Shown: one piece after another, positions 55,973 through 59,202 of the stretch
Numbering within the stretch: the first letter of the stretch is position 1
How the letters are laid out: every line of letters starts with the position of its first letter
Origin: Crambe crambe
Taxonomy: Eukaryota > Porifera > Demospongiae > Poecilosclerida > Crambeidae
Assembly: GCA_963924555.1 (NCBI GenBank)
Contig: OZ004584.1
Coordinates: 2,603,001-2,667,000 of the forward strand
Direction of reading: 5' to 3'
Length of the DNA: 64,000 nucleotides
Program-made: the position numbers and the translations under genes
Notes under the pieces: generated by a model
Databases searched by the model: none
Seen by the model: the letters and a program-made list of their open reading frames with translations, nothing else
Told to the model about the DNA's origin: nothing

Positions 55973-56602
55973 AACATAAAATTAGGCCATAGGAATATCC
56001 CAGCCTAAAGTACTCCTTTATTTTTGATTTCTTCCTCCTTCCATCATCAGTCGTAGCTACCTAGCCAGAGTGGGGCAGGGGTGTGGCTACTAAAATGGAA
56101 CTAATTGATACATAATTATACAGAATGGAAATCACAGAATGGAAATCACAGAATGGAAATTACAGAATAGAAATTACAGAATGGAATCACAGAATGGAAA
56201 TGGAATAGAATGGCCCTCCTCGGCCACCGTAACCGTAGGCAGTAGAGTGGAACTGAAATTGAAGGAAGTGGCCCTTAAAGACCATAGAATGGGTTGGAAT
56301 TGAAGTGGAAATATCATACTAGAGTGGAATAGAGGTGGAAGTAGATGTATTAGAATTAATGGCAAAAGGAAATGGAAGGAAATGGCCCTAAACAGCCACC
56401 ATAGTTTAGCATTCTGTGCCTAATCATGTGCATTCACCCAATACTTGCAGAGTCTTGAATCTTTTCAAGCTGAAAAGACTTCAGCTCCAATCTTGATTGG
56501 GAAATTTAACCTCTAAACATTTTAAAAACAATCCTGATCGAGAATTCTAACCTGCAATCTCCTTTATTAATCTTCCTCCCATATTTATAGCTATAGAGAA
56601 TA
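55973..56602. repeat. GGAAT-rich satellite-like patch
   Basis: At 56120-56205 a 13-14-bp unit (ACAGAATGGAAATC) repeats about seven times. Looser GGAAT/GGAAATGG words continue to about 56400. The remainder is featureless. The minus-strand frame here is a repeat artefact. Confidence 0.6.
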
Positions 56603-56829
56603 CCGTAGTTCCAGAAAAATTCAAAACTAAAATATTTCGGAAGTTGGAAGTATTCCGAAATTAAATTGTCCGAATAAAACGACTTTCCAGAAAATTATAT
56701 TTGTACGAAAATTTTAAATTACGGAAATTTAGATAACACATGGCTCTGGCATACTCGAGACATGTCTTTACGGAAGTATTTCAAGGCTAAAGATGGACTT
56801 CCAAGCCCCAGTTGATCTTATCTAACATT

Positions 56830-58341
56830 ATGACCTCGAGGGCAGTAGTGCTTGCTAATAAGGAAGTGGACAAAGTGATGGGTGAAGCTAAGAAAAAGAA
56901 AAAACGTGGTCCATACATGAAGTACGTTCTACATAGGTAGCTAAGCTAGCTTAGAAAAAAGATGACAATTGTATTAATTCAGATACAGTCCTAAGGATCG
57001 TGCTGATATGGGCAGATATGCAAGTCAGCATGGAGTTTCAGCAGCTGCTGCACATTTCTCTCGAAAGCTGAAGGTGAAAATCAACAGAAGTACCATCTAC
57101 TCGATCAAGAAGGACTACCTTGAGAGTGTGAGAGAGAAACGGAAAACAGATGATAATGATGTGGATGAGCTTCCTGAAAGAAAGAGTGGTAGGCCACTTT
57201 TGCTGGGGGACCATTTAGATACAGTTGTGCAAGCATATTTGCTGAAACTGAGAGAAGCTGGAGGTGTTGTATCTGCACGTATTGTTGTTGCTGCTGCTCG
57301 AGGTATTGTGATGACATATGATAAGTTCAAATTAGAAGAGTTTGGTGGCTACATAGAATTGAACAGACCATGGGCAAATTCACTTCTTGTGCGGATGAAA
57401 TTTGTCCAGCGAAAAGCCACCACAACAAAGAACAAATTTAGTGTTTCCAATTTTTCACAGTTGAAGAAGGAATTTCTAGATGATGTCACTTCCACTGTTG
57501 AAATGGAAAACATCCCCCCAGAGTTGATACTCAATTGGGATCAAACAGGTATTAAAACTGTTCAGCTTCATCATGGACGATGGACAGGCAAGGTTCTAGA
57601 CGAGTAGAAATTTATGGTTCTGGTGACAAACGGCTTATCACTGCTGTACTTTGTGGGTCACTTATTGGAGATTTTTTGCCTCCACAAATTATCTATAAGG
57701 GCAAGACAAACCGTTGTCACCCCCGTTTCAAATTTCCAAGTGACTGGGATATTACACATTCACCCAAACATTGGTCAAATGAAGAAACGATGCTTCAATA
57801 CATCAAAGCCATAATCATTCCATATGTTGAAAAGCAAAGAGACAATTTGGGGGAAGACAAGTCTGCCCTTGCGATTATGGATAATTTCAAAGGTCAAATC
57901 ACTCCACGTGTTAATGCTATTCTTGAAGAGAATTCGATTCACGTTTGTTTGTTGCCCGCTAATACCACAGATTTATTACAGCCAATGGACCTCTCTGTTA
58001 ATAAGCCTGTGAAGGATTTTCTTCGCCGAAAATTTCAAGACTGGTATTCAAGTCAAATAGCAGAGCAGTTGGATCAAGAGCCAGATATTGAAGCTGCTAA
58101 CTTGGAACCTGTAGACTTATGTTTACCAGCTATGAAAGAACTTGGTGCCAAGTGGCTTGTTGAGACAGTTCAGCACATTGCTGATAATCCATCATTCATA
58201 GTGAACGGGTTCATCAAAGCTGGAATATGTCAAGCACTTGATGTTGAGAATGAGGCACTTGCTGTTGATGGTGTGGATTCCGACAGTTTTTCAGACATGG
58301 AAGATTCAGAGATAGAAGAAGTGGACGTGAACAGTGATTGA
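56830..58341 (+). pseudogene. Pogo/Tigger-like DDE transposase, one frameshift
   Basis: Exon 1 (56830-56921) starts at ATG and ends in a basic KKKKKRGPYMK. Exon 2 (56983-58341) follows with matching phase (KYSPKDRADMGRYASQHGVS). An N-terminal helix-turn-helix-like region (HGVSAAAAHFSR, STIYSIKKDY) is followed by GRPLLLGDHLD. The catalytic core starts at LILNWDQTGI (first Asp), has LAIMDNFKGQ (second Asp) and continues with LLPANTTDLLQPMDLSVNKP, ending in an acidic tail. One base is missing near 57562: the upstream frame stops at 57607 and the downstream frame (SSWTMDRQGSRRVEI) continues to 58341. Apart from this single lesion it appears complete, so it died recently or the base is an assembly error. 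Confidence 0.85.
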
Positions 58342-58404
58342 TTGATGTACGTACTTAATGTGTGGTAACTTTTATACAGATGAAAATAATGATGTAAGTA
58401 CTGA

Positions 58405-58782
58405 TTATAATGTGCACTTTCTCAAGTGTCTTTTCAAAGAATTGATTTCTTTCTTCTTCCCTTCAAAGTGCAAAGTACAGGGGATCTCTAGTCCACCTTG
58501 AGGAAGGTCTGCGGAATATCTCCTGGTGTTGGTGACTATACAATATATGGTACCTCCTCTCATCAAAAAAAGTGAACAAACTCTCGAAATCTTCTTAGGC
58601 AAATGTCCAACAACTAGTCCACTTCTAATTACAGCAACAGCGTATCGATCTATTGTATTAGTAGGCTCCCTAATACAACAAAGAGACTCTCCAATAGCTG
58701 CTGTCCATATTGCTCTGTATTCATGATAGCCTCTGATGCAGGAATCCACCTCGCATTGTGACTCAGCCACGGACTCTGCCAT
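58405..58782 (-). CDS. HIRAN-domain protein encoded inside the pogo/Tigger element
   Basis: 125 residues from an ATG at 58780-58782. The domain covers about residues 15-110: CIRGYHEYRAIW, GESLCCIREPTNTIDRYAVA, VVGHLPKKISRVCSLFL, RRYSADLPQGGLEIPC. HIRAN domains, as in HLTF and Rad5, bind single-stranded 3' DNA ends (family knowledge); activity here is not shown. No helicase or nuclease is attached. The frame is intact although the transposase opposite is shifted. It converges with the transposase within the inverted repeats, and a broken homologue lies in the pogo-like element at 6581-7154. A role in transposition or in handling excision ends is inference. Confidence 0.8.
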   Translation of the reverse strand: MAESVAESQCEVDSCIRGYHEYRAIWTAAIGESLCCIREPTNTIDRYAVAVIRSGLVVGHLPKKISRVCSLFLMRGGTIYCIVTNTRRYSADLPQGGLEIPCTLHFEGKKKEINSLKRHLRKCTL

Positions 58783-58939
58783 TACACGCGGTAACTAATT
58801 GAACTCTAATTCACGCACATCCGGATGCAATAACAATTCGTTGTTTAAAATTTTCGGATGTTGTAATGATTCCGAAATTAAATTTCATTGAAAAATTAAA
58901 ATGCGAAATATTTCAACTTGGAAATTTCTGGAACTACGG

Positions 58940-59202
58940 TAATAATTTTCAGGACACAGGGTGAAACTTCACTTGCCAAGCAGCTACGTATAGCTACATT
59001 TTTTTTTCACAACAGTATAGTGTTATTACAACAATAGCAACAACAACAGTAATAAAAGAAAGTAGAAAGAGACAGTGATACTGCATGTACGTAAACTATA
59101 GCCAACTGAGTGTGAAACAGATTAGATGAGAATTCCTTACAAAAAATAGCTGTCTATAAAGGGGTTAACACAAATGTTTTGAGTGAAATAAACAAGGATA
59201 TA
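58940..59202. other. Downstream spacer; no feature seen
   Basis: AT-rich sequence with CAACAATAGCAACAACAACA-type low complexity. It probably includes the 3'UTR of the minus-strand gene that ends at 59203. Confidence 0.4.

Follow-up and report, generated by a model that had tools for sequence, protein, structure and literature searches.

Pogo-type transposons of the sponge Crambe crambe with a convergent HIRAN gene inside their ends, stand-alone or fused to an Ulp1/C48-type protease

HIRAN is a domain type of replication-fork repair enzymes, and a gene for such a domain lies beside a transposase in the genome of Crambe crambe. The question raised by this locus is whether that gene forms part of the transposon and, if so, what its product might do there. 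The window—that is, the whole stretch of 64,000 nucleotides analyzed—had been interpreted in a sequence-only reading as containing a Pogo/Tigger transposon bounded by TA and inverted ends, with two convergent genes: a DDE transposase and an intact HIRAN protein of 125 residues, the latter a suggested accessory factor for excision, end protection, or repair.

The window element and its two genes

We treated the element as one locus at 56601-58941, TA duplications included, with the following features:

56601..56602, no strand: left TA target-site duplication, read from the sequence
56603..56617, plus strand: left inverted end CCGTAGTTCCAGAAA; the 24-nt arm including the target-site duplication (56601-56624) is 88% paired
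56762..56815, plus strand: remnant of the transposase N-terminus, MSLRKYFK..., with a stop after 17 codons (direct reading of the sequence)
56830..56921, plus strand: transposase coding stretch ahead of the intron-like gap
56922..56982, plus strand: intron-like GT...AG gap of 61 nt
57008..57607, plus strand: N-terminal/middle frame of the transposase, 199 aa, homologous to relatives
57580..58341, plus strand: DDE_1 catalytic part of the transposase in another frame, 253 aa, with 35 residues from the second to the third D
58405..58782, minus strand: HIRAN passenger gene, intact, 125 aa, convergent to the transposase
58925..58939, minus strand: right inverted end
58940..58941, no strand: right TA target-site duplication, read from the sequence

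The left end CCGTAGTTCCAGAAA at 56603-56617 is matched by its exact reverse complement at 58925-58939 with TA flanking both, so that the bounding by inverted ends, each of 15 bp, stood as first read. That 15-mer, with up to two mismatches allowed, occurs three times in the window versus 0.09 expected upon shuffling, and in its exact form five times in the 143-Mb genome versus none for the reversed control. The HIRAN frame (58405-58782, minus strand), likewise as first described, is unbroken and convergent with the transposase, the two stop codons being 63 nt apart; and the profile search that had been proposed as a check gave 30.2 bits (E 4e-7) for PF08797 HIRAN, over the curated Pfam cut-off of 24.7; the 124-aa HIRAN of the C13:3045k element reaches 28.9 bits.

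The transposase, for its part, is present, DDE_1 (PF03184) scoring 63.6 bits within 57580-58341 (plus strand), but is not intact in the window copy, where its frame is split across 57008-57607 and 57580-58341, in addition to the early stop and the intron-like gap. The MSLRKYFK... frame from 56762 resembles the N-terminus in relatives (e.g., MSLRQYFK, MSLRRYLR), and the sister copy C13:3045k has a single uninterrupted transposase frame of 505 aa, versus the 61-nt intron-like gap of the window. Of the label Pogo/Tigger, the pogo part held; Tigger was not established, the window protein, like those of C13:3045k and C6:3894k, having no Pfam match to CENP-B_N or HTH_Tnp_Tc5. The latter domain was matched in the C99, C9:2669k, and C9:8486k transposases. 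In five relatives with CCGTA-type ends DDE_1 scores 41-104 bits, and the spacing between the second and the third D is 35 residues in four of four CCGTA members and 34 in the C5:4470k family described below, which is the pogo DD29-36D type. The DDE_1 domain, the DD35D spacing, the TA duplication, and the short inverted ends are all shared with the pogo superfamily (Tigger, Passer, Fot, Lemi, Mover, pogoR) of the IS630-Tc1-mariner group. We could accordingly confirm 56601-58941 as a pogo-type transposon (DDE_1, TA target) with a HIRAN gene inside its ends.

Left of the element, at window positions 56120-56202, lies a tandem repeat of 14 nt (ACAGAATGGAAATC).

Pairing and mobility of the HIRAN gene in the genome

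The genome surveyed—143 Mb in 119 contigs, the window included—contains at least 151 matches to the window HIRAN protein and at least 155 to the window transposase, the former number ruling out the possibility of a HIRAN occurring in only the window copy. From the counts that follow we omitted positions 1.58-3.83 Mb of contig 11 because that array was treated as one amplified unit: dozens of decayed relatives of the element recur there at a spacing of about 35-90 kb, most of them pointing the same way, which looks like the tandem amplification of a unit of tens of kb. Comparable series were seen on contig 15 (3.87-4.24 Mb) and on contig 1 (3.56-4.00 Mb); and contig 1 also contains, at 6006476-6007354 (L069), a rearranged copy: a fragment that matches the opening 878 bases of the window element at 95% identity and is followed by a right-end piece.

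Outside the contig-11 array, 79 HIRAN places were considered, 69 from one genome search and 10 from another, a few of them being pieces of one gene. The nearest transposase within 6.5 kb was convergent at 40 of these, divergent at none, and on the same strand at seven (HIRAN downstream in six and upstream in one), with none listed at 32; by chance, about 1.4 such neighbors would be expected. Viewed from the transposase side, a HIRAN place lay within 6.5 kb of 45 of the 82 transposase places outside the array, so that neither of the two outcomes named beforehand as refuting the reading, a HIRAN confined to the window copy or a profile that does not score the ORF, was obtained; the 37 places for which none was listed are mostly fragments or distant kin. 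HIRAN was nearby at 23 of the 25 transposase places of at least 150 aa, and at 22 of the 23 that were in addition at least 43% identical—both cut-offs having been picked after the fact—with C11:5539k as the exception. Among the DDE_1 places beyond those listed by the transposase search, seven of 102 were within 6.5 kb of a HIRAN place.

Both genes could be read at 25 loci, at 18 of which, as had been proposed for examination, TA-flanked CCGTA-type ends enclose the pair on both sides, with 11 different end sequences. Fifteen of those 18 bounded loci came from a search requiring TA; in the other three, and in the comparison of copy groups below, the TA was observed. At the remaining seven of the 25 one or both ends were absent or lay beyond the stretch examined; within the 18, the right end of C5:3258k has an altered base in CCGTA, and several loci have a broken or partial gene. 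For the CCGTA copies, compared in five groups with identities of about 94-99.8%, the alignments end 10 bases or less from the ends and the flanks differ; in the Jerky/Tigger-like copies, three in number and each read at one end, the alignments end within 17 bases. Since sequence identity does not continue past the ends into the flanks, which are different, the HIRAN gene transposes with the element: it is mobile together with the transposon.

Protease fusions, a second family, and joint evolution

In the window subfamily the HIRAN is stand-alone, whereas in sister subfamilies the convergent gene encodes 326-343 aa, of which the first 110 residues or so are HIRAN and the C-terminus is an Ulp1/C48-type protease. 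Proteases of the Ulp1 type are familiar chiefly for acting on SUMO. These fusions, and the second, differently arranged HIRAN of a Jerky/Tigger-like family, had been missed by the sequence-only reading. The HIRAN part of four HIRAN-C48 proteins scored 20.0-27.8 bits, over the 24.7 cut-off in two of the four, and C48 (Pfam PF02902) was above its cut-off in three of the same four long proteins, in all of which the catalytic residues H/D/Q/C are invariant. Against the PDB the C48 region weakly matched a SUMO protease of the Ulp1-like kind (E 0.031). The C48 profile matched nine of the 36 loci examined, four of those nine having served to build it, and found none in the window subfamily or in the outgroup families C9:2669k, C15:3929k, C9:8486k, and C99.

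The exceptional C11:5539k has CCGTA ends and measures 2046 bp without HIRAN, the C-terminal part of the protease being kept. We considered this element as an ancestral HIRAN-less state, which interpretation we think unlikely in view of that C48 remnant, situated in the same place and on the opposite strand, and of the HIRAN retained by its relative C17:6341k; to judge from its sequence, C11:5539k rather looks like the product of an internal deletion. HIRAN having been lost from it, the gene can evidently be lost.

The second HIRAN-bearing family is represented by C5:4470k, with ends CAGTGGACCCTC... next to TA and 2499 bp apart, and with partial copies on contigs 9 and 16 that are 98.8% identical over the shared part. 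Its transposase, with a DDE_1 score of 165.7 bits, we take to be Jerky/Tigger-like from its look. The HIRAN match (40.6 bits) lies between these ends, shares the strand of the transposase, which it follows downstream, and has three stops inside the matched stretch that may correspond to an intron. Because the profile of the CCGTA-type HIRAN gave no match to the HIRAN of C5:4470k, we consider the two to be different, and HIRAN was probably captured twice by pogo-type families, an old common origin of both followed by rearrangement being the possible alternative. As for other families, the distant relative C18:4745k, with ends 1956 bp apart and a transposase frame of 573 aa between them, had no HIRAN match listed; and three other pogo families (four loci, two with other ends and two for which none were found) gave no match to the HIRAN profile. 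A host HLTF-like HIRAN at C12:5967k scores 50.1 bits with Pfam and is weakly matched by the element HIRAN profile, at 18.6 bits.

The two genes appear to have a shared history. Pairwise distances of transposase and HIRAN were correlated over the 25 loci (r 0.83, with none of 9999 permutations as high), over 14 hand-chosen families (r 0.83, none of 9999), over 11 closer families (r 0.63, one of 9999), and over 15 automatically chosen loci that included broken contig-11 copies (r 0.57, 23 of 9999). In the comparison of gene trees that had been suggested, both maximum-likelihood trees of 13 families place the window nearest to C3 and have the C48 families all to one side of a branch. The main groups agree between the trees; the short HIRAN tree is weakly supported, and C99 sits on a long branch of the transposase tree. 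The dN/dS proposed for the HIRAN frame was computable in two of 15 family pairs: 0.08 for the window versus C3:801k (dN 0.22, dS 2.8) and 0.20 for the other pair (dS 2.1), both dS values lying near saturation; in the remaining 13 pairs dS was saturated with dN at 0.28-0.44. The HIRAN gene is thus old within the clade, its protein changing little while silent sites are saturated, and looks to be under purifying selection over a deep divergence, though at such dS values the exact ratios are unreliable. In ungapped comparisons of the window HIRAN with 13 contig-11 copies, four were spoiled by gaps and the remaining nine gave a dN/dS of about 0.53-0.72, which value is inflated because a few codons close to the end are missing from those copies, and says little since the copies are decaying.

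Possible roles of the HIRAN protein

At 2.1-2.9 kb the elements are like the pogo superfamily in size as well. A pogo survey (PMC7386202, in its available text) describes one or two ORFs encoding transposases, while the second ORF of the CCGTA elements encodes a HIRAN protein and not a transposase. Ulp1 domains occur in Ginger1 and Mutator elements and OTU domains in Helitrons, for which transposon-borne domains the authors proposed a repair role (PMC2836005, accessible portion); those systems are likewise DNA transposons with a ubiquitin/SUMO-type cysteine protease, but, as far as that portion goes, their transposase superfamilies differ from pogo, and the protease of Ginger1 is the C-terminus of the transposase, in contrast to the separate convergent gene with an N-terminal HIRAN in the CCGTA elements. 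The ciliate TBE/Tec elements (PMC7325037, excerpted text) are similar in belonging to the Tc1/mariner group and in having several ORFs, one on the complementary strand, though the extra gene of Tec is there a site-specific recombinase and not HIRAN or C48. We found no relatives outside the Crambe crambe genome in the viral contigs and prokaryote genomes searched; similar proteins with the stretch RYSxDLPQGGLEIP may occur in other animals. In a literature search that fell short of most subscription journals, no paper was found that joined HIRAN with pogo or that had HIRAN together with transposase and DDE_1; among the matches listed, none combined HIRAN, Ulp1, and transposon, and none of those on pogo and Tigger or on transposable elements and sponges dealt with HIRAN; the single match of HIRAN with DNA transposons was due to an author named Hiran; no title on transposons appeared among the listed matches to "HIRAN domain"; and neither a paper on pogo transposase with PCNA under that phrase nor a relevant one on a pogo second ORF was found.

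With the HIRAN of HLTF/Rad5 the element proteins share the Pfam domain, N91, D94, and mostly the VGH motif; they differ in being stand-alone or fused to C48, in the replacement of Y72 and Y93, and in that the element has no room for SNF2 or RING. In HLTF, Y72 and Y93 of the HIRAN domain clasp a dinucleotide between them, and the domain loses its function when N90 and N91 are both changed (PMC4666394, available text). When the window HIRAN was aligned with HLTF, Y72 and Y93 were found to be isoleucines and N90 a threonine, with N91, D94, and H110 kept (H110 mostly so across the element HIRANs); of the HLTF-type residues binding single-stranded DNA (Y72, Y93, N90/N91), only N91 is then retained. 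Since Y72 and Y93, the residues that stack on bound DNA, are not conserved, neither 3'-end binding nor the end protection suggested earlier is supported, and the element HIRAN may instead, to judge from these replacements, bind another DNA structure or a protein. The single-sequence structure-database match of the window HIRAN to HLTF had an E of 0.62, the element HIRAN profile found none among solved structures at E 0.1 or less, and a single-sequence AlphaFold2 model of the HIRAN (pLDDT 40.5) was unusable.

We propose for this clade of pogo-superfamily transposons, with their TA target and CCGTA ends, that the convergent HIRAN gene is a standing part of the element and encodes an accessory factor of transposition, a proposal for and against which we find the scales about level; whereas the position, mobility, and age of the gene are observed, its role we infer. 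Weighing against it are the replacement of Y72 and Y93, HIRAN scores under the cut-off in two of the four HIRAN-C48 proteins, the structure searches and model just given, the loss of HIRAN from C11:5539k, and the transposase and HIRAN places (37 of 82 and 32 of 79) for which no partner was listed. The HIRAN would direct the protein to nicked, gapped, or forked DNA at the sites of the transposase, where the protease, if present, would strip SUMO or ubiquitin-like marks; such removal would tilt host repair, replication-fork processing, or silencing to the advantage of the element, and a stand-alone HIRAN would keep only the targeting or a competing function, for example versus a host HLTF/Rad5-type remodeler. 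A review (PMC5371812, in the part available) reports the fly pogo transposase as a PCNA interactor with a PIP box. A transposase-like start with the conserved, PIP-box-like motif M(S/A)LxxY(F/L) was found at 14 of the 21 CCGTA loci scanned, and the transposase N-terminus of L079 (C9:8486k) has the canonical PIP box QTFIKSFF. The PCNA link and the HIRAN-protease fusion taken together suggest that the element HIRAN might act at forks or repair sites. A bolder version, which we advance tentatively and consider more probably wrong than right, would have pogo recruiting HIRAN at least twice, with the HIRAN-Ulp1 of one lineage serving as a DNA-targeted SUMO/ubiquitin protease which, together with a PCNA-linked transposase, rewires PCNA/HLTF/repair signaling at the fork. 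Little is known of how cut-and-paste transposons cope with host repair at the fork, and the conserved second gene suggests that the HIRAN-bearing elements bring their own tool for the handling of DNA damage or its regulation. As some elements of one and the same genome have HIRAN, others HIRAN-C48, and others neither of the two, a repair-partner role is testable. The elements moreover provide a HIRAN protein that is compact and separate from the large remodeling enzyme, and perhaps a natural means of inhibiting or editing HLTF/Rad5 pathways.

The protease could also be directed at host defense and not at DNA repair, in that the passenger—above all HIRAN-C48—would strip SUMO from chromatin-silencing factors and so keep the element expressed. 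The conserved C48 catalytic residues, the general association of Ulp1-type proteases with SUMO, and the Ulp1 domains of Mutator and Ginger1 elements (PMC2836005, as accessible) speak for this counter-defense, but the window subfamily and the outgroup families keep HIRAN with no detectable C48, so that the part common to all is HIRAN, a domain of the repair/fork type; we regard the explanation as rather unlikely, if deserving of attention. Distinctly less probable is a regulatory passenger that would adjust the activity of the transposase by binding either it or the subterminal repeats, in the manner of accessory proteins of other transposons: the convergent 3' position at 40 of the 47 places with a neighbor, the joint evolution with the transposase, and the sufficiency of a single-domain form in many families would all fit such a regulator, while a catalytic role, or one directed at the host, is indicated by the protease fusion and by the second occurrence of HIRAN with a transposase in another family.

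That a HIRAN exon was taken from the host a single time and then carried as functionless cargo would agree with the many broken copies, with the absence of HIRAN from C11:5539k, and with the dN/dS of 0.5-0.7 between the window and the decayed contig-11 copies; yet the protein is conserved across families despite saturated silent sites, ORFs are intact in several families, HIRAN has evolved jointly with the transposase, and a second HIRAN is present in another pogo family, so that we hold passive carriage to be very unlikely. Chance neighborhood, or a host gene beside a transposon remnant, for which nothing speaks beyond the single window, is ruled out for practical purposes by the convergent counts versus the 1.4 or so expected, by the 18 loci whose ends enclose the two genes, and by the five near-identical CCGTA groups that have moved together into different flanks.

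On contig 17, a 302-aa ORF (L008:218-1126, minus strand) has a different, weaker HIRAN match of 24.4 bits, just below the cut-off, and adjoins a remnant of a CCGTA-type element.
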